The translations under genes and the position numbers were made by a program. A stretch of DNA of 64,000 nt, from the NCBI GenBank assembly GCA_013151645.1, contig JAADHU010000060.1, positions 1-64,000 on the forward strand. The letters are read 5' to 3'. Positions 2,634 through 16,722 of this stretch are shown here, in pieces. Each line of letters starts with the position of its first letter. Within the stretch, counting starts at the first letter, position 1. The notes under the pieces are model-generated. The model was not told the origin of the DNA and did no database searches. It was given only the letters and a program-made list of their open reading frames with translations. Source of the stretch: Gammaproteobacteria bacterium (GTDB taxonomy: Bacteria > Pseudomonadota > Gammaproteobacteria > Steroidobacterales > Woeseiaceae).

Positions 2634-3515
2634 ATGACGTATCTGCAGGATATTCGCAGGAAACCTATTTCGACCGAGGCATTGTCAGAAAAACGACCGG
2701 AGCGAAACGCGCTTAACCAGACGAGCGTTGTTGGTGGGTTAGTGGCTTGCCTGATCGTGTCTCTGGCATTCGGTGACATGGCTTACTCGCGGAACGATCG
2801 AAGCACTGCCGTGGTTGCCGACCTATTCGAAGCCGAGGGACTCGATGGAACACTGGTTGTTGCATCTTCCAGTGGAGAAATCCTTCATGTGTATAACGAT
2901 GAGAGATCGAAGCGGCGATTCTCGCCCGCCTCGACTTTCAAGATTATGAATACTCTGGTTGCGCTGGAGAGCGCGGTCATTTCATCGCAAGATTCGATAT
3001 TCGAGTGGGATGGCATCGATCGGGGGGTGCCGGCCTGGAACAGAGACCAGACGCTGCAAACGGCGTTCCGGGTATCGTGTGTTTGGTGTTACCAGGAACT
3101 GGCCAGGCGCATTGGCAAAACTCGGTACGTTTCCGCGCTGGCGCATGCTGATTATGGCAATCAACAGGTTGGCCTCGAGGTGGATCAGTTCTGGCTTAAC
3201 GACGTATTGCAGATTTCCGCGATTGAACAAATAGATTTTCTCAGCAGGCTGGTCGACGCTTCAATTCCTTATCGCCGTGAATACGTCGATATCGTGAAGA
3301 ACATCATGTTGGACGAACAATCAACCGACTATATCATCCATGCAAAGACCGGCTGGACAGGCGCAAATCTTCATGTCGGATGGTACGTCGGCTATGTTGA
3401 GACAAAAGAAGATACCTGGTTGTTTGCAATGAATATGCGTATGGACAGAGCAGAACAGGCGGCTTTGAGAAAGGAACTGACTGTGCGTTCACTGCGGGCT
3501 TTGGGGATACTGTAA
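2634..3515 (+). CDS. Class D (OXA-type) beta-lactamase
   Basis: A serine beta-lactamase of class D, hydrolysing beta-lactams in the periplasm by an acyl-enzyme route. All family landmarks are present: S100-T-F-K103 (nucleophile and the lysine carboxylated in this class), S148-C-V, Y174-G-N, W187 after the YGN motif (the usual omega-loop tryptophan region), and K238-T-G. A hydrophobic segment at residues 32-48 is a signal peptide or anchor. The 30-residue polar lead before it is unusual, so an internal start is possible, although the ATG at 2634 follows a GGGA. At 293 residues it is slightly longer than typical OXA enzymes because of this lead. It stands alone, with no mobile element or regulator next to it, in the A+T-richer left segment. 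Its spectrum cannot be judged from sequence; a sensor-type BlaR-like domain is excluded by size. Confidence 0.9.
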   Translation: MTYLQDIRRKPISTEALSEKRPERNALNQTSVVGGLVACLIVSLAFGDMAYSRNDRSTAVVADLFEAEGLDGTLVVASSSGEILHVYNDERSKRRFSPASTFKIMNTLVALESAVISSQDSIFEWDGIDRGVPAWNRDQTLQTAFRVSCVWCYQELARRIGKTRYVSALAHADYGNQQVGLEVDQFWLNDVLQISAIEQIDFLSRLVDASIPYRREYVDIVKNIMLDEQSTDYIIHAKTGWTGANLHVGWYVGYVETKEDTWLFAMNMRMDRAEQAALRKELTVRSLRALGIL

Positions 3516-3720: not shown

Positions 3721-5811
3721 ATGAAGAAAATCACAGTGGCAACAATTCGTCGATCGATGAATCTACTCGGCGTGATAACACTGGCGCTCGGCGTCGCAGC
3801 GTGTTCGCCCGATAGCACATCAACCAGCGGCACCGACGAAGCAGCGGCAGGGCAACATGTCATCGCACCCGGGCCCGGTACAACTGGTGGTCAATGGGAA
3901 TTCCTGGGCGGCGATGCCGCGCACACTCGTTATTCGCCCGCCGAGCAAATCAATGCCGACAACTTTGAGGACCTCGAAGAGGCCTGGGTCTGGGATGGTG
4001 CGAGCTTCAATGCTCAGAGCGGCCGATCAACACCGAGTTATATCGATGGCACTTTGTATACCGTCGCCGGTGCGCGTCGCTATGTCACGGCAATCGATCC
4101 CGCCACGGGCGAGCTTCTGTGGTCCTATGGCGAACCGAAAACCGGCCGCTATGAATACTCAATGCGCAAGGACTACGGCAAGGGTGTCGCCTACGCGAAC
4201 GTAGATGGACGCGGTGTCATCTACATCTCATCGCCGGCGTTCTTCCTGACGGCACTCGACGCGAAGACCGGACAACCTCTGGAGAACTGGGGCACACCGG
4301 TACCGATCGATGGCTTCCCCGAGAGTGGCGTTGTCGACATGCTGGCGGATCTCGGCCACGAATACGATCCTTACGATGGCCTTCCCCTGGAAACGGGGTA
4401 CATCACGACGTCTTCGCCGCCCATTGTGGTTAACGGTGTCATCATCGTTAGCAATTCACATGAGCAGGGTTACTACCAGTCGCGAATTGAAAATGTGCCC
4501 GGTGACATACTCGCTTATGACGCTCGCACGGGTAAATTCTTGTGGAAGTTTAATGTCATTCCGCAACCCGGTGAGTTTGGTCACGACACCTGGGAAAACG
4601 ACGCCTGGAAGACAACGGGTGACATATCTTCATGGGCGCCCATGTCGGCCGATCTTGAGCGTGGCATCGTTTACATTCCCACCAATGGCGTCACGATCGA
4701 CTACTACGGCGGCTTCAGCCCCGGAGACAATTTGTTCAGCACAAGCCTGATCGCATTGGATGCCAAAACCGGCAAACGCGTCTGGCACTACCAGCTCGTG
4801 CATCACGATATCTGGAATTACGACACGCCAACGGCACCGGTGTTGCTCGATGTCACCATCGACGGCAAAAAAACGCCCATTGTCGTGCAAACGGCCAAAC
4901 AAAACTTCGCCTACACATTCAATCGTGAAACCGGCGAACCCATCTGGCCAATCGAGGAAAAGCCGGTGCCGGCCTCCGATATTCCCGGTGAAAAACTTTC
5001 CGACACGCAGCCCTTCCCGACCCGACCGGCCGCTTACGGCATGCAGGGTCTGGTTGAAGATGACCTGATCGACTACACACCGGAATTGCGCGCAGCCGCG
5101 ATCGAGGCGCTCAAGAATCATAAGATCGGCCCGCTTTTCAACCCGCCATTGCATCGTGACAACGACCAGGGCTACCGCGCGGCGTACTGGTGCCCCGGCG
5201 ATGGCGGCGGCACCAATATTGACGGTCCCACGGTCGCGGATCCGGAAACCGGCATTCTTTATGTTTCCACGAAGAAAGCGTGTTCCTCGCGAATCATCGT
5301 ATCCGGTGCGGAGCGAGACAAGAATATCGAAGCACCGACGGGAATCACGTTCGCCGATTACGCATCGCTTCGCTCGGACCAGGTCCGGGGTCCATTCGAC
5401 CTGCCCCTGTTCAAGCCGCCTTACAGCCACATCACCGCAATCGACATGAACACGGGCGACATCTTGTGGAAGCTGCCGGTTGGTGAGACGCCGGAGCGCT
5501 ATACCGACAACCCGAAACTGAAAGGCGTCAAGCTGCCGGCGACGACCGGTACCGGCCGGAACGCAGTCATGGCGGTCACCAAGACCGTGCTCATGTATGC
5601 CAGCACGGCCGCCGATGGCACGCCCATGCTGTTTTTCGTTAACAAGAAGACCGGTGAGCCATTGGGCGGTGTCGAGGTTGAGAATCGCTCGAACTACGGC
5701 ATGATGACGTACATGCACCAGGGCAAGCAGTACATCGTGTTGCAAACCGGGCCGAAGTTAACGGCGCTGGCGTTGTATGACGAGAGCGAGGGAGCTGCAG
5801 CGGCACACTGA
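3721..5811 (+). CDS. PQQ-dependent (quinoprotein) dehydrogenase lipoprotein
   Basis: A 696-residue eight-bladed propeller quinoprotein that oxidises an alcohol or sugar using pyrroloquinoline quinone and passes electrons to the respiratory chain. The N-terminus is a lipoprotein signal ending LGVAAC28-S, so the enzyme is lipid-anchored, probably facing the periplasm. Tryptophan-docking blade repeats are visible: AIDPATGELLW, AYDARTGKFLW, ALDAKTGKRVW and AIDMNTGDILW. There is no CxxCH, so no fused cytochrome domain, which separates it from quinohaemoproteins. It resembles the glucose/ethanol dehydrogenase-like family, but the substrate cannot be assigned. It is monocistronic: 205 bases from the beta-lactamase, and convergent with the next gene across a REP-like hairpin. 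No pqq biosynthesis genes are in the window. Confidence 0.9.
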   Translation: MKKITVATIRRSMNLLGVITLALGVAACSPDSTSTSGTDEAAAGQHVIAPGPGTTGGQWEFLGGDAAHTRYSPAEQINADNFEDLEEAWVWDGASFNAQSGRSTPSYIDGTLYTVAGARRYVTAIDPATGELLWSYGEPKTGRYEYSMRKDYGKGVAYANVDGRGVIYISSPAFFLTALDAKTGQPLENWGTPVPIDGFPESGVVDMLADLGHEYDPYDGLPLETGYITTSSPPIVVNGVIIVSNSHEQGYYQSRIENVPGDILAYDARTGKFLWKFNVIPQPGEFGHDTWENDAWKTTGDISSWAPMSADLERGIVYIPTNGVTIDYYGGFSPGDNLFSTSLIALDAKTGKRVWHYQLVHHDIWNYDTPTAPVLLDVTIDGKKTPIVVQTAKQNFAYTFNRETGEPIWPIEEKPVPASDIPGEKLSDTQPFPTRPAAYGMQGLVEDDLIDYTPELRAAAIEALKNHKIGPLFNPPLHRDNDQGYRAAYWCPGDGGGTNIDGPTVADPETGILYVSTKKACSSRIIVSGAERDKNIEAPTGITFADYASLRSDQVRGPFDLPLFKPPYSHITAIDMNTGDILWKLPVGETPERYTDNPKLKGVKLPATTGTGRNAVMAVTKTVLMYASTAADGTPMLFFVNKKTGEPLGGVEVENRSNYGMMTYMHQGKQYIVLQTGPKLTALALYDESEGAAAAH

Positions 5812-5941: not shown

Positions 5942-7555
5942 TTACGTCTCACACTCCAGGTGCTGACGATGAATTACAACGCCGGGCAACTTCCCCGTTT
6001 GTTTACCGTCACTAATTACCGCAATACCGTTTACCAGCGCGTGTACTACGCCGCTCGATAATCGGCCGGGGTTTTCGAAGTCTGCCAGCGGCAAATAGTT
6101 GTTGACGTCCAGAACGACGACGTCGGCTTTCCTTCCTTCTTCGAGGTAGCCTCGATCACAAAGATGAAAAGTGTCTGCGACCAGCCCCGAGCTGCGATGC
6201 ACAAAACGTTCTACCGGAAAGAGTTTCTCCGTCACCACCATATCCTGGAAAGCCTTCGGATAACTTGCGTATTTACGCGGGTGCCCCTCCGAACCATCGG
6301 ATCCGGTCATTACCCATTCCTGTAAAGCAATGGCGTAAATGTCCGGCAATTTCATCACGAAGGACGCAATGGACGGATCACCGGCTCTTACTACTTCGAG
6401 CGCCGCATCCAGTGAATCACGTTGCATGTTTTCGGCAATCTCGGTCAGCGTCATGCCACGCCACGGGCTGTCGGTACCCGTAACAAGCATCGCATCCGGA
6501 CCACCACGACGCCACAGGTTGGTTTCCATCTCTTCGCGGATGCGATCTTTCAGGTCCGCATTGTCCAGGCGCTCGAACATCGCTTCTTTCGAGTCCGCCC
6601 GTACCCAGCCCGGAATCAGCGCTGCACTGAATCGGGTACCCGATGCGCGGTACGGGTATTGATTGGCGGTCACTTTCAGACCTCGTTCGCGCGCCGCATT
6701 CACCATCGAAATCACGTCGCCGCTTTGGCCCCAGACTTCTCGCCCCAGGGCTTTCAGGTGCGATATATGCACGGGGATGTCTGCGTCCTCGGCGATCGTA
6801 ATCGTTTCTTTCACGGAGGCCAGCAAGCCGATTGTGTAAGCACTTTCGTCACGCATGTGTGTGTCATACACGCCGCCGAAATCGGCTGCTACCCTGGCAA
6901 GAGCCACCACTTCGTCCGTCGAAGAAAAGCTCCCGGGCGTGTAATAGAGCCCCGTCGATAACCCTACCGCACCCGCCTGCATTTGTTCTTCGGTCAGCGC
7001 CAGCATTTGCCGGAGTTCGTCTTCCGTCGGCGCGCGATTCTCCAACCCCATCACCTGCTCGCGAATATCGCCGTGACCGGCGAAAAAGGCCACATTGGTC
7101 CCGGTGCCCTGCTGACTGAAAAGTTGCAGTGTCTCGTTCAGGTCGGGAACGCCATCACCGTCATTGCCGATGAAAACGGTGGTCACACCCTGCGTCAGGT
7201 AGTTGGCATTCGTATTTCGCTTTACGTCGATCAGGTCGACACCGGCATGGGTATGCGGATCAATGAAGCCGGGAACCACAAGTCGATCCGATGCGTCAAT
7301 GATTCTGTCTGCCGTCGATTGCAGAGGCGCGTTCATCGAAACAATTCGATCGCCGGAAATGCCGATGATCGTACGGCGCCCCGGTTGCAGACCACCGTCA
7401 TAGACAATCCCACCGGTGATCAGTACATCGTAGTGAGGCACGATCGATGCATCCGGTTTCGAGCAAGCGGCCAAGACAACAGCGCCTGAACAAACGACGA
7501 GGAACCGTACTCGAATTCGCTGGCGAAAGGTCTGACTCTTCTTTGTCACTAACAT
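5942..7555 (-). CDS. D-aminoacylase-like amidohydrolase lipoprotein
   Basis: A 537-residue amidohydrolase of the N-acyl-D-amino-acid deacylase group, expected to remove acyl groups from N-acyl-D-amino acids with a metal-activated water. Visible motifs are H101-T-H103 in GFIDPHTH, a conserved THMRDE and HISHLKALG, and the C-terminal amidohydrolase strand (GRKADVVVLD). The N-terminus is a lipoprotein signal ending VLAAC31, so the enzyme is placed in the cell envelope. It starts 3 bases after the stop of the DadA-like gene and is the last gene of a five-gene operon. An acylase plus a D-amino acid oxidase in one transcript supports a D-amino acid substrate (inference). Alternatives are other dihydroorotase-like envelope hydrolases. 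Confidence 0.85.
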   Translation of the reverse strand: MLVTKKSQTFRQRIRVRFLVVCSGAVVLAACSKPDASIVPHYDVLITGGIVYDGGLQPGRRTIIGISGDRIVSMNAPLQSTADRIIDASDRLVVPGFIDPHTHAGVDLIDVKRNTNANYLTQGVTTVFIGNDGDGVPDLNETLQLFSQQGTGTNVAFFAGHGDIREQVMGLENRAPTEDELRQMLALTEEQMQAGAVGLSTGLYYTPGSFSSTDEVVALARVAADFGGVYDTHMRDESAYTIGLLASVKETITIAEDADIPVHISHLKALGREVWGQSGDVISMVNAARERGLKVTANQYPYRASGTRFSAALIPGWVRADSKEAMFERLDNADLKDRIREEMETNLWRRGGPDAMLVTGTDSPWRGMTLTEIAENMQRDSLDAALEVVRAGDPSIASFVMKLPDIYAIALQEWVMTGSDGSEGHPRKYASYPKAFQDMVVTEKLFPVERFVHRSSGLVADTFHLCDRGYLEEGRKADVVVLDVNNYLPLADFENPGRLSSGVVHALVNGIAVISDGKQTGKLPGVVIHRQHLECET

Positions 7556-7558
7556 TGC

Positions 7559-8773
7559 TTACTCCGAATGCGTTACCGCGCTCGCCGCGGCTTCTGCCGT
7601 TGCGCAGGCCACCGTCCACCCCAGGGACCCGTGACCGGTATTGACGAACAAGCCGGCGATGCCGGTTGCGCCTACGTTGGGCTGACCGGTCGGTGTTACC
7701 GGTCGAAAACCGCCCCACGGCTGGATGTCCTGCACAGTATAGTCCGCCGCATCAGGCGCCGCCCGCTTCGCAATTTCGCACATCAACGAAATCCGTTGTG
7801 CGTCCCGGCTTTCATCGAAACCGGCGAAATCCGCGAAACCGGCTATGCGAATCTTGTTGTCGAACTGACTGTATACAATTCGATTGCGCAGGTTGGTAAT
7901 ACTGACCGTCGGCGCGTAACGCCCCGGCGGCAGGGTAACGCTGTAACCGCGTACCGGATACAGATTCGATCTGACACCGTACGGCGTCAGCAACGGCTCA
8001 CTCCAGGGACCCAGGCAGACGACGGCTGCGTCCGCGCGAATGCTCCCCACGGGCGTCTTCACACCCAGAAACCGGCTCTTTTGAACGTCGAGGCCGAGAA
8101 TCTTCCGGTCAAAGTGAAACCTTACCGGTCGATTGGTTCGCAGCCAGTCGCTTAGGCTCCGGGTGAATGCGAGCGCGTCACCCACGTGATCGTGTTCGGC
8201 GTACATGGCGCCCGCAAAATCCTGCCGCATGAACGCAAGCGCCGGTTCCTTGCCAATAGCATCATCCGGTGCAAGAACCTGAGTCTCACAGCCGTACTCG
8301 CGTTTTAGCGATGAGGTCGCTTCTGCCGTCCGTACGTCGTTTGACGTAGCAAGCAGCACGAGCTTGCCAACTTCTTTGTGCGCGAAATCGAGTGGGGTCT
8401 TTCGCCGAAGTTCTTCCATCAATGTTGCAGAACGCAGGGCGATTTTCAGAACGGCCAGCGTGTTTTCTCTCGCCCTGGCCCGGGTGCACTGCGTGAGGAA
8501 CCGTAGTCCCCAGGGAAACATCGAGAAATTTCTTATAATCCGGACTCGAATTGCTGGATCGAGGCCGAGCAGCAACGACGGAATTTTCGGCAGGAATTCC
8601 GGGTTGGCGAGCGAGTCCGTATAGCTATAGGACAATTGACCACCATTCGCGTGAGACGTCGCCATCGCGACCGCCGATGCGCGCTCGATGACGGTCACAC
8701 GATGGCCGGACTCCGCCAGGTAGTACGCCGTGGTGACCCCGGCAACGCCTGCACCAAGAACGGCGACGTGCAT
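7559..8773 (-). CDS. FAD-dependent D-amino acid dehydrogenase (DadA-like)
   Basis: A 404-residue FAD oxidoreductase of the DAO/DadA family. The N-terminus carries the Rossmann dinucleotide motif VLGAGVAGVTTAYYLAESG and the following acidic strand end (VIER). A C-terminal FAD-binding segment (GGFRPVTPTGQPNVG, then GHGSLGWTVA) matches the DadA signature region. It should deaminate D-amino acids to 2-oxo acids at the cytoplasmic membrane, feeding electrons to quinones. It starts 41 bases after the acylase gene and is followed 3 bases later by the D-aminoacylase, so translation is probably coupled. It is a little shorter than E. coli DadA. Other glycine or proline oxidase-like members cannot be ruled out, but the acylase neighbours fit a D-amino acid substrate. 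Confidence 0.88.
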   Translation of the reverse strand: MHVAVLGAGVAGVTTAYYLAESGHRVTVIERASAVAMATSHANGGQLSYSYTDSLANPEFLPKIPSLLLGLDPAIRVRIIRNFSMFPWGLRFLTQCTRARARENTLAVLKIALRSATLMEELRRKTPLDFAHKEVGKLVLLATSNDVRTAEATSSLKREYGCETQVLAPDDAIGKEPALAFMRQDFAGAMYAEHDHVGDALAFTRSLSDWLRTNRPVRFHFDRKILGLDVQKSRFLGVKTPVGSIRADAAVVCLGPWSEPLLTPYGVRSNLYPVRGYSVTLPPGRYAPTVSITNLRNRIVYSQFDNKIRIAGFADFAGFDESRDAQRISLMCEIAKRAAPDAADYTVQDIQPWGGFRPVTPTGQPNVGATGIAGLFVNTGHGSLGWTVACATAEAAASAVTHSE

Positions 8774-8814
8774 CAGAGAATCCCTTTGTTGGCCTGCAGT
8801 TTCTACCGACTTCT

Positions 8815-11010
8815 TCAGATCTCGCCAGGGTGATAGCGGCGCTCAGCGCGCTTCTCGACATCTTCGCGATAGAAAGCCACGTCCTTGAATTGCCGATCGA
8901 CGTAGCGTTGCGCCTGATCGTCGAAGTGTGGCGAATCCGGATCACCGCTTTGACCACCCGCGAGCATCGTTTTCGCTTTTACTTTGTCACCGAACTCAAC
9001 CACGGCGACGAAACTATTGCCGTTGGACCCGTAAATGCGTTTGGTGCCCGGATACCGTTTCGCGCCGAACGACGCCAGTGCTCCCCAGCGGCCTGAGCCA
9101 AACCCAACCGGTAGACTTGGAGCCTTGTCGTCATGCGGTTGAACGATATCACCCGTCAGTCTCTGGAAACGGTTGATCTCACCCCAGGGTGTGTCCCACT
9201 GGCCGAAATCCGCCTCAAGCGCAACCAGCGTCGCCGCGAATATCCGTAGTCGCTCTGCGTGCGGCGAGCCATTGCCAAAATAGTCGACCAGTTCAATGCC
9301 GCGCAATCCTTGGGGATTCTCTCCATCGACTCCGTAGCGCAAACCATAGAAGTGCGCCAGTGACATAGCGACAGAATCGGACGCAGTCCTGAGGTCCCAG
9401 TGTCTAAGTACGGCCACCGCGTCGGCAAGTTCCGGGTAGTCTTCCCCCGACTCATCGAAGGCCTTGACCAAGCCGGGAATAAGACGCTCGAAGCCCGGCA
9501 GGTAGGAGTCATAGGCAAGATCAAGCAACTTATCGAGCGTCAGTCCGGATTGACGGCTTAGAACTCGCACCGCATGGATTCCTCGAAATGTTTCCGGATC
9601 CGGGGCCATGTACACCGGGTAGTCTTCACGCTTCGGACTGAACTCTGCGGCGGCGGTAAAGGGCGTCGAGTTGCAGTTCTGCAGCCAGCCGTTCGCCGGA
9701 TTGAGCAGCGTTATGGTTTCGTCAACCGAGTGAATTCCCTGCCAATCGGTGTCGGGATTGCTGCCATCGACCGGCTTTGAGAAATCGAAACGAGTATCCC
9801 GGCGCGGTACAAAATTGCCGTGGTAGTAGGCTATGTTGCCCTGAGAATCGGCGTACACCGTATTGTTCGACGAGTTCGTGCGGATATCCATCATTTTACG
9901 AAACTCATCGTGACCACTGAGCTTGGTACGTGTATAGGATTGTCGCAGTGCATTGACCGGATCCCAGTTAATTTTAGTCACCACCCATTTTCCGTCCAGC
10001 ATGTGCGTTACCGGGCCGTGATGCGTGTGATACATCGGGAATGTCCGCTCCGACATTGTCGCGCCATCTTTATATTTGAGCGTTACTTCAGAAACCTCAA
10101 CCGGTCGAATTTCATCGCCATAGCGATATACCAGCTTGCCGTCCTGCTCAAAGACGTCTTCGACGAATTCATCCATAAAGTCCAGGCGGGTCGAGGTGTG
10201 CATCCAACCGGTGTTTTCATTGAATCCCTGGTATACGAAGAACTGACCCCACGTTACGGCACCGTAGGCATTCAGGCCCTCTTCGCTGACCATGTGGACT
10301 TCACCACGAAAATAGAAAGACGTATGAGGATTGATGAGCAACAACGTGTTCCCCGATTCCGTCAAATCGCCCGAGATTGCGAAGCCGTTCGAACCCTTGG
10401 GTTCCGCGAATTCAACCAGCCTCGCCTGTGCCTCGCCCGGCGCTTGCACCGATTTACCCGATCCATAGAAGGCGATAATACCGTCGATATCGATTTGCTC
10501 AATATCACCACCAATCGACCCTTCACTGAAGAACATGGGCATCCAGGGCTCGAAGCGTGTGAGCAAGGCCGGCTTCACATCCGGGTGGGTCGCGAGATAA
10601 TAGTTCAAGCCATCGGCGTAGGCGTCGCAAAGTGCTTTGAGCCAGTCCGGCGCAGCGGCGTACGCCGCTTTCGCCTCATCGACGGTCATGTAAAGACGCG
10701 CTCGCAGATCACTGAAAATAGCGTCTTCTCCATCGACTTCGGCCAAACGGCCCGTGGCCCAGATGTAGTTGCGTTCGACGCGATTGAAGTCATCTTCCGC
10801 CTGTGCGTACAGCAGACCAAACACGGCATCCGCATCCGTCTTGCCGTAGATATGCGGCACACCAAAATCGTCCCGAATAATGGTGATATTCTGCGCCTGT
10901 GCGACCAGTCGTTCGAATTCCGGGTCGATCGCCACCTCGGTCTTTGGTGAACAAGCCGCCAACAGCATCAGTATCGCGGAGAACAGGATGAGCCGATATT
11001 TTTGATTCAT
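8815..11010 (-). CDS. Penicillin acylase family N-terminal-nucleophile hydrolase, lipoprotein
   Basis: A 731-residue precursor of the Ntn-hydrolase class that includes penicillin G acylase, cephalosporin acylase and acyl-homoserine-lactone acylases. It cleaves amide bonds after self-processing into alpha and beta chains. The predicted cleavage site is G206/S207 in PKGSNGFAISG; Ser207 would be the catalytic N-terminus of the beta chain. The lipobox LLAAC20 makes it a lipoprotein, so the active enzyme is exported. The NPHTSFYFRGE segment matches the conserved stretch after the nucleophile. It lies 70 bases downstream of the permease gene and 41 upstream of dadA in the same operon. Its likely role is releasing amino acids from N-acyl compounds. 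Whether the real substrates are lactones, beta-lactams or N-acyl amino acids is unknown. Confidence 0.88.
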   Translation of the reverse strand: MNQKYRLILFSAILMLLAACSPKTEVAIDPEFERLVAQAQNITIIRDDFGVPHIYGKTDADAVFGLLYAQAEDDFNRVERNYIWATGRLAEVDGEDAIFSDLRARLYMTVDEAKAAYAAAPDWLKALCDAYADGLNYYLATHPDVKPALLTRFEPWMPMFFSEGSIGGDIEQIDIDGIIAFYGSGKSVQAPGEAQARLVEFAEPKGSNGFAISGDLTESGNTLLLINPHTSFYFRGEVHMVSEEGLNAYGAVTWGQFFVYQGFNENTGWMHTSTRLDFMDEFVEDVFEQDGKLVYRYGDEIRPVEVSEVTLKYKDGATMSERTFPMYHTHHGPVTHMLDGKWVVTKINWDPVNALRQSYTRTKLSGHDEFRKMMDIRTNSSNNTVYADSQGNIAYYHGNFVPRRDTRFDFSKPVDGSNPDTDWQGIHSVDETITLLNPANGWLQNCNSTPFTAAAEFSPKREDYPVYMAPDPETFRGIHAVRVLSRQSGLTLDKLLDLAYDSYLPGFERLIPGLVKAFDESGEDYPELADAVAVLRHWDLRTASDSVAMSLAHFYGLRYGVDGENPQGLRGIELVDYFGNGSPHAERLRIFAATLVALEADFGQWDTPWGEINRFQRLTGDIVQPHDDKAPSLPVGFGSGRWGALASFGAKRYPGTKRIYGSNGNSFVAVVEFGDKVKAKTMLAGGQSGDPDSPHFDDQAQRYVDRQFKDVAFYREDVEKRAERRYHPGEI

Positions 11011-11080
11011 GAGAGCGAAGCCTTGATTGCTGTTACAGAGGTTATGGCGCGATCGATAGTATCAATTCGACAGACGCACG

Positions 11081-12409
11081 TCAGAGTGGCTGGCGCGCCT
11101 GAAGCAGCGCCGTTGCCCGCCGATTGTGTGGAGAGCGAAAGTGAATATAGGCAATCACCAGCAGGATATAGAGGGTCACCAATACCCAGCCACCACGGTC
11201 GATGTCCGAGAATGACAGCGCGCCCTGGACCAGCAGCACGCCCATCCCGATCACACTGATCGTTCGAACCGTCCGCTCGCTGAATTTCATCGTGGCTTGT
11301 GCGAATGCCTGTGGCAGGCGTTGCGCGAACAGGAAAGCGGCCACCAATGGGATAAGGTCATAGACAAAGACAAGCCCGCCGCCGAGCATGATGATGTAGC
11401 GAAGATCTTTACCGGCGAGAATGGGTATTGAGCCGAAGATCAAGAGAAACGTAAGCAGAATGTGCGGTGTATTGAATCGCCGGTTGACGACCGCGATACC
11501 TTTCGGCAGCCAGCCATCTTCGCAGGCGATCATCACGGATTTCGTCGCCCAGGTGAAAGTCGAGTTAATACTGGTAGCCAGCGCGAACAGGCCGGCGCCG
11601 ATAATGAACGCGGTGTAGATCGGCGCGGGCAGAATCGATTGCGCCACCTCCGCCAGCGATTTTCCCGCTGTTTGCTCAACCGGCAATACACCGACAGCGA
11701 CAATCGATACCAGCGCAAAGAACACGGCCGCCAGGAGTGTGCTGTAAATAATTGCGCGGGGGAGATCGTGTTGCGGGTTTTTCATCTCGCCGCCCAGCTC
11801 CGAAATGTACTGCGCGCCACCCGTCGAGAACGACAGCACGACGCAAGCCAGTCCGAAACCGTACCAGCCGTTCGGGAACAGTTTCTCCGCAGTGGTGAAA
11901 TTGCTGTATTCAACCTCACCGAGACCGAAGAAAATCAACGACGACAAACCGATCAAGAGCAGGACAATCATGATTTTCTGTACGACGGCCGCCTGTTTAA
12001 CGCCGAATAAATTCACCAGGTAGAACAGGAAGAGAATACCCAGGGCGATCACCCGAATATCCAGACCCGGCACCAGGGCGACAGCGTACTGCGCGAAACC
12101 CAGTGCGAACAGTGAGATCAGTACGTGCGTCACCAGCAGAATGGCGAGGTAGAAAAAACCGATCTTAGGACCAAGAATCCGTTTGCAATAGACGTAAAGA
12201 CCACCGGTAGCCGGCATGGCTGAGCCCATGAAAGCGACCGGCAACTGCTTGATGACCGAAAGAGATGCCGACAATACGAAGGCCAGTGGGATCGCATATG
12301 CCGTGAACTCGATACCGATGCCGATCAACACCATGATACCGGAGCCGATCACCTGGCCCAGCGCGATTGCGAAGACGTCCCAGAAACTTAGTGATCGCTT
12401 GAGTTTCAT
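11081..12409 (-). CDS. APC-superfamily amino acid permease
   Basis: A 442-residue integral membrane protein with about 12 hydrophobic helices and the APC hallmark in TM1 (FAIALGQVIGSGIMVLIG). It is expected to import amino acids by proton or sodium symport or by exchange. It starts 31 bases after the lyase gene and is followed by the acylase, so it is the transport step of the operon: envelope hydrolases free amino acids and this carrier brings them in. It is compact, without a long C-terminal domain. Substrate specificity, including whether D-isomers are taken, cannot be read from the sequence. Confidence 0.88.
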   Translation of the reverse strand: MKLKRSLSFWDVFAIALGQVIGSGIMVLIGIGIEFTAYAIPLAFVLSASLSVIKQLPVAFMGSAMPATGGLYVYCKRILGPKIGFFYLAILLVTHVLISLFALGFAQYAVALVPGLDIRVIALGILFLFYLVNLFGVKQAAVVQKIMIVLLLIGLSSLIFFGLGEVEYSNFTTAEKLFPNGWYGFGLACVVLSFSTGGAQYISELGGEMKNPQHDLPRAIIYSTLLAAVFFALVSIVAVGVLPVEQTAGKSLAEVAQSILPAPIYTAFIIGAGLFALATSINSTFTWATKSVMIACEDGWLPKGIAVVNRRFNTPHILLTFLLIFGSIPILAGKDLRYIIMLGGGLVFVYDLIPLVAAFLFAQRLPQAFAQATMKFSERTVRTISVIGMGVLLVQGALSFSDIDRGGWVLVTLYILLVIAYIHFRSPHNRRATALLQARQPL

Positions 12410-12440
12410 CGCTCAAAGTCCCGGCGGGCTGTGGAAAGAA

Positions 12441-13640
12441 TCAGATCAGCGCAAGCGCAGCATCGAAGTCTGACATCAAGTCCTGCGGATCCTCAAGTCC
12501 GCTCGACACGCGGATCATGCCCTGCGTAATTCCCATTTGCAGGCGTTCTTCGTCAGGTATATCCAGAAACGCCATCGATGCGGGAATTTGTGTCGTCGTT
12601 CGAACGCCGCCAAGACTGGCCGCAAAGCAGGCGAGCTGCAGGTTGTCGAGTACCTTGAGTGCCGAATCCACGTCACCCACATCGAAGGTCAGCATGCCAC
12701 CGAATTTTGGCATCTGTTCCTTGGCAAGCGCGTGTTGCGGATGCGACGGCAAACCCGGGTACCAGACTTTATTCACTTTCGGGTGTTGCTCGAAATGCCG
12801 CGCGAGGGTCATGGCCGTCTGGCACTGTCGTTCCACACGCACGGAAAGCGTTTGCAAACTTCGCAGCAACAGCCACGCATTGAACGGTGACAGGGGTGAA
12901 CCCCATTTCACCATCGTGTTCCAGCGAATCTGTTCCATGAAATCTTTCGGCAACAGGTCGGACTTCAGGCAAATCACGCCACCGATCGCATCGCTATGCC
13001 CACCGATAAACTTGGTCGCACTCTCCACGACAATATCGACGCCGAGATCCAGCGGCCGCATGACGTACGGGCTCGCAAACGTATTGTCGCAAACCGCGAC
13101 GACACCGCGCTCGTGCGCGATATCGGCCAGCGCCTGGATGGTAGCCACTTTCATGGTTGGGTTCGCAATCGTTTCAAAATACAGAACCCGGGTATTGTCC
13201 TGAATTGCGGCACGCACGCTGTCGAGATCGGCCGTGTCGACGAACGTGGTCGTGATGCCGTAGTCGGTCAGGCGATGATCCAGCATTTCGTGCGTTGAGC
13301 TGTAGGTGGTCCAGTCACAAACGATATGGTCGCCGCTTTTGAGCAGACCGAACAAGGAGACCGAAATAGCCGCCATGCCAGACGCCGTCGCAAGACAGGC
13401 CTCCGCACCCTCGACCATGCACATCTGTTCTTCAAGCTGATACTCGGTCGGATTGCCGCAGCGGCCGTAAATGTTGACGTCTTTGCGCTCGCCATCGACC
13501 ACGCGGTTGTAGACCTCCGCGCCATACTGAAAACTCGATGACATAAACAGGGGCGCATTGATCGAGCTCGTCCCCTCATCCGGTGGGTAATAGACGGTTT
13601 TGCTATCGAAATGAAGCTTTGCTTTTTGTTCGGGCGTCAC
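12441..13640 (-). CDS. PLP-dependent Cys/Met metabolism lyase (gamma-family)
   Basis: A PLP enzyme of the Cys/Met-metabolism family (methionine gamma-lyase, cystathionine gamma-lyase or synthase). The PLP lysine is K210 in ESATKFIGGHSDAIGG, and YGRCGNPT matches the substrate/phosphate-binding segment. The GTG at 13640 is preferred: GAGAGG lies 7 bases upstream, giving 399 residues. A TTG at 13655 without a site would add five. The residue in the place of the methionine gamma-lyase cysteine appears to be serine (TTYSSTH), so a pure methionine gamma-lyase is not certain. It is the first gene of the minus-strand N-acyl amino acid operon and divergent from psuK, and could break down sulfur amino acids or homoserine derivatives released by the acylases. 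Confidence 0.85.
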   Translation of the reverse strand: MTPEQKAKLHFDSKTVYYPPDEGTSSINAPLFMSSSFQYGAEVYNRVVDGERKDVNIYGRCGNPTEYQLEEQMCMVEGAEACLATASGMAAISVSLFGLLKSGDHIVCDWTTYSSTHEMLDHRLTDYGITTTFVDTADLDSVRAAIQDNTRVLYFETIANPTMKVATIQALADIAHERGVVAVCDNTFASPYVMRPLDLGVDIVVESATKFIGGHSDAIGGVICLKSDLLPKDFMEQIRWNTMVKWGSPLSPFNAWLLLRSLQTLSVRVERQCQTAMTLARHFEQHPKVNKVWYPGLPSHPQHALAKEQMPKFGGMLTFDVGDVDSALKVLDNLQLACFAASLGGVRTTTQIPASMAFLDIPDEERLQMGITQGMIRVSSGLEDPQDLMSDFDAALALI

Positions 13641-13688
13641 GATCCAACCTCTCAACCATTGAATTTTCGGGGTTCTGCGCGTACTGTT

Positions 13689-13716
13689 GCAAACATATCT
13701 TTATAAAGCAAACATA
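13689..13716. promoter_or_regulatory. Divergent promoter region with 9-bp direct repeat, candidate operator
   Basis: GCAAACATA occurs at 13689-13697 and again at 13708-13716, 19 bases apart (about two helical turns). The second copy also forms an inverted repeat, CAAAC-ATAA-GTTTG, ending just before the psuK ATG. The spacer is A+T-rich. This is the only space between the minus-strand lyase operon (start 13640) and psuK (start 13723), so a bound regulator could control both. The winged-helix domain of the PsuK-like protein encoded next door is the obvious candidate, by inference only. Confidence 0.5.
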
Positions 13717-13722
13717 AGTTTG

Positions 13723-14826
13723 ATGTTAACTGATCGAGAACAGCAAGTGCTGGCACTGATTCGCGGCAACCGCCTGATTTCCCAGCGCGCCATTGCGGAA
13801 CAGTTGGGCATCAGCCGTTCCGCCGCCGCCGGGCACGTCATGAACCTGACGGCCAAGGGGATCATAAAGGGACGGGGCTATGTCATCAGCGAGGATCCCT
13901 TTGTCGTTGTCGTTGGTGGTGCCAACATGGACATTCACGGCACCCCGAATGCGGCACTTCGAGCGCACGACTCCAATCCCGGCCGTGTACAAAGTTCACC
14001 CGGTGGCGTGGCCCGCAACATCGCCGAAAACCTGGCGCGACTCGGCGTCGATTGCCGCCTGATCGCGCCGGTGGGTAACGATCATCACGGCGAATTGCTC
14101 ATGCAACAGGGGCGGGCGGCCGGTATCGACATGCGTAACATGCTGCAATTCGACGCGGTAAACACTTCAACCTACTTGTCAGTTCTCGATGATCGTGGCG
14201 ACATGTCGGTGGCCATTTCAGATATGGCGATTCTCGACAGACTCGGCGCAGAGCAACTGCGCGCCCGTGAAAAGATGCTGCGACAGGCCTCAATGATTGT
14301 TGCGGATACGAATCTGACGGACGATGCGCTCGCCTATCTCACCCGCACGTTTACCGATCACACGCTGTTTGTCGATACCGTTTCAACGGCGAAAGCGATC
14401 AGGATCAAACCCTACCTGTCGGCCGTGCACACGCTGAAGCCCGGTCTTATCGAAGCGGAAGCAATAGCGGGCATCAAAGCTCCGACAGACGATCAATTGC
14501 CCGCACTGGCGAACTGGTTTCACGATCACGGCGTGAAACGCCTGTTTATTACGCTTGGGCCTCGCGGCGTTTTTTACAGCACGGGTCAGGAACAAGGCAT
14601 CGAAAAAACGCCGGATGCGTCCGCTCAGCCAGTCAACGCGGGCGGCGCCGGTGACGCATTCGTCGCCGGGCTGGTGCGCGCCTGGCTGCATCAATGGCCA
14701 CTGCTAAAGTCCGTGCGCTTCGCGTTGTCCGTCGCGAAACTGACGCTGGCACATGCAGAAACCAACAATCCGGATTTGTCGAATGCGGCGGTCCAGCGTA
14801 TTTACGAGCAGGACTATGCCGCCTGA
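13723..14826 (+). CDS. psuK: Pseudouridine kinase with N-terminal winged-helix domain
   Basis: A two-domain protein. Residues 1-55 form a winged-helix DNA-binding region (TDREQQVLALI, then RAIAEQLGISRSAAAGHV), and residues 60-360 a PfkB-family sugar kinase. The kinase shows the GGxxMD start (VVVGGANMD), the GG of SSPGGVARN, and the anion-hole/catalytic motif N305-A-G-G-A-G-D311. With psuG directly downstream this is pseudouridine kinase, which phosphorylates pseudouridine to its 5'-phosphate. The ATG at 13723 (MLTDREQQ) is chosen over an upstream TTG because the conserved winged helix begins there. The stop overlaps the psuG start. The HTH suggests that the protein also senses nucleoside and regulates its own locus, as proposed for similar HTH-PfkB fusions. 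Confidence 0.88.
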   Translation: MLTDREQQVLALIRGNRLISQRAIAEQLGISRSAAAGHVMNLTAKGIIKGRGYVISEDPFVVVVGGANMDIHGTPNAALRAHDSNPGRVQSSPGGVARNIAENLARLGVDCRLIAPVGNDHHGELLMQQGRAAGIDMRNMLQFDAVNTSTYLSVLDDRGDMSVAISDMAILDRLGAEQLRAREKMLRQASMIVADTNLTDDALAYLTRTFTDHTLFVDTVSTAKAIRIKPYLSAVHTLKPGLIEAEAIAGIKAPTDDQLPALANWFHDHGVKRLFITLGPRGVFYSTGQEQGIEKTPDASAQPVNAGGAGDAFVAGLVRAWLHQWPLLKSVRFALSVAKLTLAHAETNNPDLSNAAVQRIYEQDYAA

Positions 14827-15757
14827 CGCCGTCAATTCGTTCCTCGATATTCAGCCGGATGTCGAGGCTGCGCTGACCGACAAGCAAGCCGTTGTAGCAC
14901 TTGAGTCAACGATTATCTGCCATGGAATGCCCTACCCACAGAATGTGGAAACTGCGCTGCAGGTCGAGAATATTGTACGAGAAAATGGCGCGACGCCCGC
15001 GACCGTTGCCGTTCTCGATGGCCGTTTGAAAGCGGGCCTCACCGAGGACGAGATCGACTATCTCGGCCAGAAGGGCAAGCGCGTAACGAAAGCGAGCCGA
15101 CGCGATCTGCCGATCATCGTGTCCCGACGGCAGGATGCTGCAACAACGGTCGCATCGACAATGATTATCGCGAACATGGCCGGCATTGACCTGTTCGCGA
15201 CGGGTGGTATTGGTGGTGTGCACCGCGGTGCAGAACAGAGCATGGATATCTCGGCGGATCTTCAGGAACTTGCACAAACCAACGTTGCGGTTGTCTGTGC
15301 CGGCGTCAAGTCTATTCTCGACATCGGCCTGACCCTGGAATATCTGGAAACTCACGGTGTTCCCGTGGTCGGCTATCGAACGGATACATTGCCGGCCTTT
15401 TACTCCCACAGCAGCCGTTTCCCGGTTGATTGCAGGCTGGACAACGCGCGCGATGTCGCCCGCATGTTATGCGTCAAATGGGACATGGGCGTTGGCGGCG
15501 GCGCGGTGATCGCTAACCCGGTACCGAGCGAACATGCGCTGGATCCCGCGGAAATCGATGCGGTAATCAGTGCCGCGCTGCAGACTATGAAGAGCAGCGG
15601 CATCACGGGAAAGAATACGACCCCATATCTACTCGCAAGCATTGCTGAAAAGACCGGCGGACGAAGCCTTGCAGCCAATATTGAGCTTGTCTACAACAAC
15701 GCCAGGCTTGCCGCACAGATTGCGGTTGAATTCTGCCGGGAAAGGTACTCGAGGTGA
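14816..15757 (+). CDS. psuG: Pseudouridine-5'-phosphate glycosidase
   Basis: A 313-residue PsuG/IndA enzyme that splits the C-C glycosidic bond of pseudouridine 5'-phosphate to uracil and ribose 5-phosphate. Conserved positions fit the family: E30 in VVALESTIICHGMPYPQN, K92 in RVTKASRRD, and K165 in CAGVKSILDIG. FATGGIGGVHRG is the family signature. Chosen start: ATG 14816, which overlaps the end of psuK by 11 bases and gives a normal N-terminus; longer readings lie inside psuK. The next gene overlaps its stop by 4 bases. Full length and apparently intact. Confidence 0.93.
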   Translation: MPPDAVNSFLDIQPDVEAALTDKQAVVALESTIICHGMPYPQNVETALQVENIVRENGATPATVAVLDGRLKAGLTEDEIDYLGQKGKRVTKASRRDLPIIVSRRQDAATTVASTMIIANMAGIDLFATGGIGGVHRGAEQSMDISADLQELAQTNVAVVCAGVKSILDIGLTLEYLETHGVPVVGYRTDTLPAFYSHSSRFPVDCRLDNARDVARMLCVKWDMGVGGGAVIANPVPSEHALDPAEIDAVISAALQTMKSSGITGKNTTPYLLASIAEKTGGRSLAANIELVYNNARLAAQIAVEFCRERYSR

Positions 15758-16722
15758 GCGTAGCCATCCCCACTATCGACCTTTCTGCATTTCTCTCCGG
15801 AAACGATGAGGAGCGCAACGTCATCGCCGAACAGGTCGACCAGGTGTGCCGCTCGATTGGTTTCCTGATCGTCGATAATCATGGCGTCGACAGCGCGATA
15901 ATCGCTCGCGCCTGGTCGATGGCCGAGGCATTTTTCGATCTGCCGCTGGACAAGAAACTGCGGGTTTTCCCTGCCGACTCCGCATGTCCTCGAGGCTATT
16001 TTCCACCGCAGACGGAAACCCTGGCCAAATCACGCGGTATTGAGACGCCGCCCGATCGTAAAGAGACTTTCAGCAGCGGTGCGCTTGTTGTGCCGGAGGG
16101 CGCTGGTGCTGACGAAAATTTCGCGTTTTTTTACGGCGCGAATAACTGGCCCGACGAACCCGCTGGATTCCGCGATGCCTGGATCGCTTACTACCGTTCA
16201 ATGGAGCAACTCGGAGCCAACATCATGCGGTTGTTCGCGGCAGCACTGGGTCTGGCCGACAACTATTTCGCCCGATTTCACTCGCACCACATCAGTGCTT
16301 TGCGTGCGAATCATTATCCGCGAGTCACCCAAGACTCACTACCCGGTCAAAATCGCGCCGGCGCACATTCCGATTACGGCAGTGTCACCCTCCTGCGACC
16401 GGACCCGAACGTCGGCGGGCTTGAGATCAAATTGCCGTCAGGCGAGTGGCTTGCTGCCCCGTTGACCAAAGATGCCTTCATTGTCAATATTGGAGATATG
16501 CTGGCGCGATGGACCAACGATCGTTGGGTCTCGACGCTGCACCGCGTTGTGGATCCGGAAACCAGCGATCAACATCGACTTTCAATCGCCTATTTTCAAG
16601 TCCCGGATTTCGATGCGGTCATTCGCTGCATCCCTACCTGCGTTACGGACGATGCCGTTGAAAAGTACGAGCCGATCGACGCCGGACCTTACCTGATGAG
16701 TCGTTTTCGATCGACCATGTAA
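15754..16722 (+). CDS. Isopenicillin N synthase-like 2OG-Fe(II) dioxygenase
   Basis: A 322-residue non-haem iron oxygenase of the isopenicillin N synthase/DIOX family. The facial triad H205-x-D207 (AHSDYGSVTLL) and H263 (STLHRVV), and the 2-oxoglutarate-binding R275-x-S277 (HRLSIAYF), are all present, and the DIOX_N domain covers residues 1-110. The GTG start overlaps the psuG stop (GTGA), indicating tight coupling. Members of this family hydroxylate or oxidise many small molecules, including pyrimidines and xanthine-type substrates. Its place after psuK-psuG suggests action on a modified base or on uracil, but that is inference. No plant-like extension. Confidence 0.88.
   Translation: MSVAIPTIDLSAFLSGNDEERNVIAEQVDQVCRSIGFLIVDNHGVDSAIIARAWSMAEAFFDLPLDKKLRVFPADSACPRGYFPPQTETLAKSRGIETPPDRKETFSSGALVVPEGAGADENFAFFYGANNWPDEPAGFRDAWIAYYRSMEQLGANIMRLFAAALGLADNYFARFHSHHISALRANHYPRVTQDSLPGQNRAGAHSDYGSVTLLRPDPNVGGLEIKLPSGEWLAAPLTKDAFIVNIGDMLARWTNDRWVSTLHRVVDPETSDQHRLSIAYFQVPDFDAVIRCIPTCVTDDAVEKYEPIDAGPYLMSRFRSTM

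Follow-up and report, generated by a model that had tools for sequence, protein, structure and literature searches.

Gene organization of the locus

The stretch of DNA analysed here, hereafter the window, comprises positions 1 to 64,000 of contig JAADHU010000060.1 (assembly GCA_013151645.1) from a Woeseiaceae genome of 3.96 Mb in 83 contigs, and harbors five adjacent minus-strand genes at positions 5942-13640, divergent from a set of pseudouridine genes. In transcription order the five genes encode a lyase of the Cys/Met metabolism (gamma) family of pyridoxal phosphate (PLP) enzymes, denoted YSST lyase (12441..13640, within the open reading frame 12441-13655; PF01053), an APC-family amino acid permease (11081..12409; PF13520, 129 bits), a lipoprotein of the penicillin-acylase family of N-terminal nucleophile (Ntn) hydrolases (8815..11010; PF01804, 393 bits), a DadA-like FAD-dependent D-amino acid dehydrogenase (7559..8773; PF01266, 208 bits) and a D-aminoacylase-like amidohydrolase lipoprotein (5942..7555; PF07969), with gaps of 31, 70, 41 and 3 bases between them. 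The best start of the lyase is GTG 13640, preceded by GAGAGG, in agreement with the start placed in a preliminary description of this locus. The families assigned there to the five genes are each supported by Pfam (Cys_Met_Meta_PP, AA_permease_2, Penicil_amidase, DAO and Amidohydro_3), and the two lipid-anchored deacylases postulated there both carry a lipobox LAAC by reading. Co-transcription of the five genes is plausible; a consensus scan yielded 4 promoters with 4.5 expected from shuffles and 7 terminators with 8.4 expected, i.e. no excess of either.

On the plus strand, psuK for a pseudouridine kinase with an N-terminal winged-helix domain (13723..14826), psuG for a pseudouridine-5'-phosphate glycosidase (14753..15757; PF04227, 439 bits) and a gene for an Fe(II)/2-oxoglutarate oxygenase (15754..16722; PF14226 and PF03171), a proposed N-demethylase of methylated (pseudo)uridine or uracil, run away from the lyase. 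The divergent control region shared by lyase and psuK comprises 82 bases (13641..13722), bounded by GTG 13640 on the minus and ATG 13723 on the plus strand. On the other side, a pyrroloquinoline quinone (PQQ) dehydrogenase gene (3721-5811, plus strand) points towards the five-gene unit.

The five-gene run is a composite of a lyase-permease pair, an acylase gene, and dadA with the D-aminoacylase-like gene. The same five-gene order, for which a search in other genomes had been suggested, occurs in only one of 107 genomes of the window's family, namely the window's own.

Active-site residues of the lyase

With 426.5 bits against a gathering threshold of 27, the lyase is a member of PF01053, and along its full length it shares 162 of 374 aligned residues (43%) with the methionine gamma-lyase (MGL) of Citrobacter (CfMGL). 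Its Lys215 aligns with the PLP lysine Lys210 of CfMGL, and the equivalents of Y58, R60, Y113, D185 and S207 are kept as well. The best NCBIfam model is that of methionine gamma-lyase; the score against TIGR01328, however, is 407.4 bits compared to a trusted cut-off of 549.7, and for none of the 25 families shown does the protein reach the curated cut-off.

A combination of the motifs YGC and KD is used as a methioninase filter in PMC11568061. Both motifs are present in all three rows annotated as MGL, whereas in all 22 rows of the lyase clade (21 of them distinct: the window, family rows and seven plasmid rows) YGC is replaced by YSS and KD is lost, the alignment placing a four-residue insertion at its position. 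Furthermore, an arginine is found in the clade where nine of nine comparators possess a glutamate (Glu344 in CfMGL numbering). In the tree, the clade receives a support of 100/100 on a stem of 1.79 changes per column and stands apart from the Salmonella, Ruegeria and Leisingera MGL and from cystathionine gamma-lyase-like rows, the tree program flagging possible long-branch joins. The window protein resembles methionine gamma-lyase (megL/mdeA) in fold family, length, PLP lysine and the equivalents of Tyr58, Arg60, Tyr113, Asp185 and Ser207, and differs from it in the YSS motif, the loss of KD, the exchange of Glu344 to Arg, the separate long-stem clade and the nucleoside gene context. On the basis of these residues, the enzyme does not qualify as a methionine gamma-lyase.

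Beyond the family, searches for the lyase gave next to nothing: 274 genomes of the class (E up to 1e-110) and 398 genomes of the phylum (E up to 1e-108, at most four candidates scored per genome) each returned a single match, the window's own, and 385 genomes from the class of an alphaproteobacterial genome returned none in a search run without a positive control (E up to 1e-120, again at most four candidates per genome).

Separable units within the family

In the 107 family genomes (G handles; genus labels g1, g9, g10 and g11), an ortholog of the permease is found in 15, at 71-100% identity, and a relative of 36-39% identity in two more. A full-length lyase gene adjoins the permease ortholog in 14 of the 15. 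The acylase occurs in 35 genomes (E up to 1e-150) and dadA in 43 (E up to 1e-60), while the D-aminoacylase (E up to 1e-80) reaches at least 46% identity in 27 of the 46 genomes with matches. Eight of the 15 lyase-permease genomes possess the acylase (4.9 expected), a weak association with P = 0.065, where this and all further P values treat genomes as independent and ignore shared descent, a simplification that also counts against the interpretation proposed below. No association is seen with dadA (2 of 15, 6.0 expected) or D-aminoacylase (4 of 15, 3.8 expected). By comparison, of 17 genomes with both dadA and D-aminoacylase, 15 have them on one strand no more than 1.5 kb apart, the exceptions being G050 and G068.

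The modular build-up is most evident in the slot between the PQQ dehydrogenase gene and psuK. It contains D-aminoacylase, dadA, acylase, permease and lyase in the window, the first three of these in G002 of the same genus, acylase, permease and lyase in G014, G015 and G019, where the acylase likewise adjoins the permease, and permease and lyase alone in G011, G012 and G013. Between acylase and psuK, G002 retains a 31-residue remnant of the lyase (L189:8833-8925, 74% identity), which reads as a deletion that took away lyase and permease. In the acylase tree, the window, G002 and the three g9 slots form a group of moderate support (94/92). A common ancestor of g1 and g9 may hence already have had the order acylase-permease-lyase, the penicillin-acylase-family gene having probably been added to the lyase-permease pair in such an ancestor. 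In G045, only the C-terminal 42 codons of the lyase (L203:10428-10553) remain beside an intact permease gene, and there is no N run.

Association with psuK, psuG and the oxygenase

The genes with which the lyase-permease pair is associated lie, in the window, on the other side of the control region. PsuG is encoded in 41 of the 107 genomes and the oxygenase in 21, all of which are psuG-positive (8.0 expected, P = 2.7e-11); in a comparison within genus g11 the link persists (8 of 8 versus 25 of 73, P = 8e-5). Fourteen of the 15 lyase-permease genomes are psuG-positive and twelve are oxygenase-positive, and in the three devoid of the oxygenase (G012, G027 and G031) the contig edge is reached in psuK or psuG. 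Two arrangements are observed, one with lyase-permease divergent from psuK (g1, g9 and g10) and one with lyase, permease and oxygenase followed on the same strand by psuK-psuG (G094, L201, and, with the lyase remnant, G045, L203). In G066 (L202), lyase, permease, an aminotransferase and the oxygenase form a row, and psuKG resides on another contig. The lyase and permease may therefore belong functionally with psuK, psuG and the oxygenase and not with the D-amino-acid genes.

The oxygenase also adjoins a kinase gene and psuG without the lyase (G085 and G098; L280 and L281), and it is located apart from psuG in G005, G010 and G048. A 5'-nucleotidase-family gene lies 3.2 kb from the oxygenase gene in G039, and a gene of the same cluster is found beside it in G090 (L277 and L279). 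Elsewhere, psuK-psuG adjoins a sodium:alanine symporter gene (G010, L292:7303-10745) or the gene of a different amino acid permease (G095, L294:922-4101).

Kinase, oxygenase and tandem site

The closest structure to the window kinase is E. coli PsuK (7vkp, E 3e-71), and all 12 substrate-binding and catalytic residues of EcPsuK listed in PMC9247573 are kept, at a score of 266.9 bits compared to the curated cut-off of 540 for NF007355. In comparison to the E. coli psuK-psuG pair, with which kinase residues and PsuG are shared, a winged-helix domain is fused to the kinase here, a tandem operator-like site and an oxygenase are added, and in a subset of genomes lyase and APC permease are added as well. 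The psuG frame overlaps the end of psuK (14753-14826); in several homologs the alignment begins only at about residue 20-29, and several others show stops in the matched frame, hence the true start is probably downstream of 14753 and may be near 14820.

For the oxygenase, the closest solved relative is fungal thymine-7-hydroxylase (T7H; 5c3p, E 3e-46), whose residue roles are taken from PMC4787775. The Fe triad His/Asp/His as well as Tyr217 and Phe292, which form the base sandwich, are present in all 21 distinct orthologs, and most 2-oxoglutarate-binding residues are shared. The position of Asn294 is occupied by Asn in 17 of the 21 orthologs and in none of 15 distant homologs. The polar base contacts of T7H are not preserved as a set, since the position of Glu122 is variable and Asn87 is lacking, as is Asn294 in the window copy. 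The genomic link is to pseudouridine salvage and not, as for T7H, to thymidine salvage.

Immediately 5' of psuK, a tandem operator-like site composed of two AAACAnnTGTTT-like palindromes 19 bases apart is found (13691..13721, pair score 34.9). Pairs scoring 23.1-45.5 occur 5' of long psuK genes with a winged-helix domain at 24 further loci (14 of the 15 loci L189-L203, plus L281, L283-L286, L288-L291 and L293), nine of which train the site matrix together with the window, and the best score in 79 background acylase loci is 20.0. At L291, however, gene picking marked no kinase. The site is absent at loci with short kinases (L280, L282, L287, L292 and L294), and we infer that the winged-helix domain of the kinase binds it, which renders it a candidate site of a pseudouridine regulator. 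As the site fills 13691-13721 of only 82 bases open to both promoters, the same control probably extends to the five-gene unit. A regulon extending beyond the shared region was considered and rejected on the lack of a tandem site at L202 and L275-L279.

Plasmid-borne relatives of the lyase

In a plasmid collection, 15 records carry a lyase 57-60% identical to that of the window, and eight of the surrounding stretches were compared (L295-L300, L305 and L306). In all three Pseudosulfitobacter stretches (L296, L299 and L306) a nucleoside hydrolase gene is divergent from a row composed of a 2-oxoglutarate oxygenase, three amino-acid ATP-binding cassette (ABC) genes and the lyase; the L296 hydrolase is nearest to the models of uridine-preferring UriH and pyrimidine RihA, below the cut-off of both. 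The five stretches from the Rhizobiaceae Shinella, Ensifer and Sinorhizobium (L295, L297, L298, L300 and L305, the last one unannotated and read by tblastn with L297 proteins) consist of a sugar ABC importer, the lyase and a PfkB kinase, with an RpiR regulator and a PRAI-like gene divergent, and no glycosidase was recognised in them. Uptake would thus proceed through transporters of the amino-acid type in two lineages and through a sugar importer in the third, and the substrate should accordingly hold both moieties.

Proposed route and alternative explanations

PLP enzymes of the gamma family eliminate a leaving group attached to the gamma carbon of their amino acid substrate. In nucleosides carrying the 3-amino-3-carboxypropyl (acp) group this carbon bears the pyrimidine N3, an imide of thiol-like acidity, so that the same gamma-elimination chemistry would release 2-oxobutyrate, ammonia and the free base edge. 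We infer from gene context every substrate and reaction of the route that follows. The APC permease would import a nucleoside bearing an amino acid, the lyase would remove the acp group by gamma-elimination, the oxygenase would take off a remaining N-methyl group, and PsuK and PsuG would convert pseudouridine to uracil and ribose 5-phosphate, the order of the lyase, oxygenase, PsuK and PsuG steps being left free. To our knowledge, only one natural compound would use all steps, namely m1acp3Psi, with acp3Psi and acp3U as simpler alternatives.

In eukaryotic 18S rRNA, m1acp3Psi consists of pseudouridine (Psi) with an N1-methyl and an N3-acp group, as stated in PMC7694415, and bacteria feeding on eukaryotic detritus would hence meet it. 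According to PMC9247573, EcPsuK binds m1Psi but retains on it only about 6.8% of the activity seen with Psi, and the m1Psi demethylase is there called still unknown. Among the matches listed from the open-licence literature, none describes a catabolic pathway of this kind for acp nucleosides or pseudouridine. T7H is capable of N-demethylating 1-methyluracil, an activity not found in that literature, which on this subject too describes nothing of the present pathway. The enzyme families themselves are known; the lyase subfamily, its YSST / SLGGxRTTTQ signature and the pathway were not encountered in the literature covered.

That lyase and permease import and gamma-eliminate an acp-bearing (pseudo)uridine, followed by demethylation and breakdown of Psi, with a separate N-acyl-D-amino-acid module downstream, is a reading we regard as quite possible, if somewhat short of probable. 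More tentatively, the pair might open what would be the first catabolic route known for m1acp3Psi or acp3Psi (acp3U in relatives), in which the leaving group is the N3 imide instead of a thiol and which employs an Fe/2-oxoglutarate N-demethylase together with psuK-psuG. Little is known of what becomes of hypermodified RNA nucleosides; if the proposal is true, an acp-removing lyase and an N-demethylase become two directly assayable candidate genes, and enzymes annotated as methionine gamma-lyase or as of aminotransferase class I/II-fold can act on nucleoside carbon-nitrogen bonds.

Several observations weigh against the acp route. At E up to 1e-5, tblastn detects no homolog of psuK, psuG or the window-type permease in the eight plasmid stretches, so that the linkage to psuKG is observed in the window's family alone; on the plasmids, an N-nucleoside such as acp3U would be required as substrate in Pseudosulfitobacter, or something else in the rhizobia. 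The Pseudosulfitobacter oxygenases share only 34-36% identity with that of the window, the one searched being nearer to an ethylene/succinate-forming enzyme, and for the two rhizobial kinases that were compared, similarity to psuK is confined to a short segment. The window oxygenase belongs to a broad family; its Phe292 is not diagnostic, as it is present in 15 of 15 distant homologs, too, the position of Asn87 is Pro throughout the orthologs including the window, and the window copy has Val in place of Asn294. Neither the lyase operon of G066 (L202) nor the oxygenase loci L275-L279, all of them unlinked, possess the tandem site. Other amino-acid transporters beside psuKG (L292 and L294) mean that a permease there need not indicate an acp nucleoside, and in Salmonella, too, a gene with a transporter annotation comes after the true megL.

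This last point equally fits the use of sulfur amino acids, where the permease would import methionine (or homocysteine, cystathionine) for a divergent methionine/cystathionine gamma-lyase and psuK, psuG and the oxygenase would be incidental neighbors. Such an explanation draws on the 43% identity to the Citrobacter enzyme with its PLP machinery kept and on methionine gamma-lyase as the best NCBIfam model, and has to account for the absence of YGC and KD from all 22 clade rows, the Arg in place of the Glu of all nine comparators, scores under all 25 curated cut-offs and a nucleoside-gene association repeated in two classes; it is unlikely, yet deserves to be kept in view. Cleavage of the homocysteine gamma-carbon-sulfur bond in a thioether nucleoside or sugar (S-adenosylhomocysteine or S-ribosylhomocysteine), with sugar kinases taking the rest, would likewise combine amino acid and sugar in one substrate and suits the importer, kinase and PRAI-like isomerase of the rhizobia. 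It leaves psuK, psuG and the oxygenase of the window's family unexplained, as well as a nucleoside hydrolase nearest to uridine-preferring models, and is considered improbable.

The preliminary description had joined all five genes into a single pathway releasing, importing and degrading N-acyl-(D-)amino acids. Part of this persists, because dadA and D-aminoacylase form a recurrent module, which the acylase precedes in G002 of the same genus, too; the spacing is tight, and an Ntn acylase with a permease would complete such a route. The units, however, come apart in relatives, lyase-permease is without association to dadA or D-aminoacylase and only weakly associated with the acylase, and none of 80 acylase loci from named genomes contains a dadA or D-aminoacylase homolog (tblastn, E up to 1e-10) in the available stretch, a short one at some loci. 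As one pathway for all five genes the idea appears very improbable. In the acp reading, the D-amino-acid genes remain a separate module, in which the D-aminoacylase-like protein would deacylate N-acyl-D-amino acids outside the inner membrane and the D-amino acids would be oxidised inside.

Acylase and D-amino-acid module

The acylase is assigned to the penicillin amidase family by its PF01804 score and the Gly-Ser site. In the alignment, its Ser207, preceded by Gly206, occupies the place of the Ser nucleophile at residue 1 of the beta chain, where three aligned precursors carry Ala, and a His and an Asn align with those of glutaryl-7-ACA (GL-7-ACA) acylase. Family, Gly-Ser maturation site and the aligned His and Asn are shared with glutaryl-7-ACA acylase, D-succinylase and PvdQ; the window acylase differs as a lipoprotein and scores 88 bits against the PvdQ model NF051460, far below the cut-off of 950. 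N-acyl-homoserine lactones, named as possible substrates in the preliminary description, were dropped on this distant similarity, PvdQ membership not being supported.

Of the 80 named acylase loci, eight are labelled Woeseiaceae and one (L008) contains lyase and permease. Acylase homologs of 66-73% identity occur in metagenome-assembled genomes labelled Verrucomicrobia, Acidobacteriota and Klebsiella pneumoniae (L003, L005 and L041), labels which look doubtful. A general tie between acylase and methionine-type enzymes, prompted by PLP enzymes of 38-40% near the acylase (L066, L070-L076, L078 and L079), was rejected, as the four examined out of these ten PLP enzymes carry YGG and VES like the cystathionine gamma-lyase comparator and group with it. 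In Oxalobacteraceae (L070-L076, L078 and L079) the acylase homolog lies near an opposite-strand PLP enzyme, and the three checked are cystathionine gamma-lyase-like.

DadA and the D-aminoacylase-like protein constitute a separate conserved module that looks ordinary. The DadA-like protein scores 356.9 bits, close to but below the 383 of NF001933. The amidohydrolase matches Alcaligenes D-aminoacylase (1rjp, E 1e-61; also 1m7j), the metal ligands of which are HxH, Cys, His, His and Asp; HxH, the later two His and the Asp are aligned, whereas the Cys position is occupied by Asp. Oxidation of D-amino acids is encoded next to it, and the window protein is set apart from the Alcaligenes enzyme as a lipoprotein and by the Asp at the Cys ligand. 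In three relatives an M14/AstE-AspA-like gene lies between dadA and D-aminoacylase (L205 and L207) or beside dadA (L208), which may provide a third deacylation step. Among the literature matches listed, none describes by title an operon of these D-amino-acid genes.

Outside these units, the window of this apparently environmental genome carries a class D beta-lactamase gene at 2634-3515 (plus strand). Beta-lactam catabolism, suggested by a beta-lactamase near an Ntn acylase and DadA, was discarded, since beta-lactamase matches (37% identity) are present in only two of the 80 acylase loci and none is found in L189-L208. The beta-lactamase itself stays below the cut-offs of the other subfamilies shown and passes NF012161 with 278 bits against 250.

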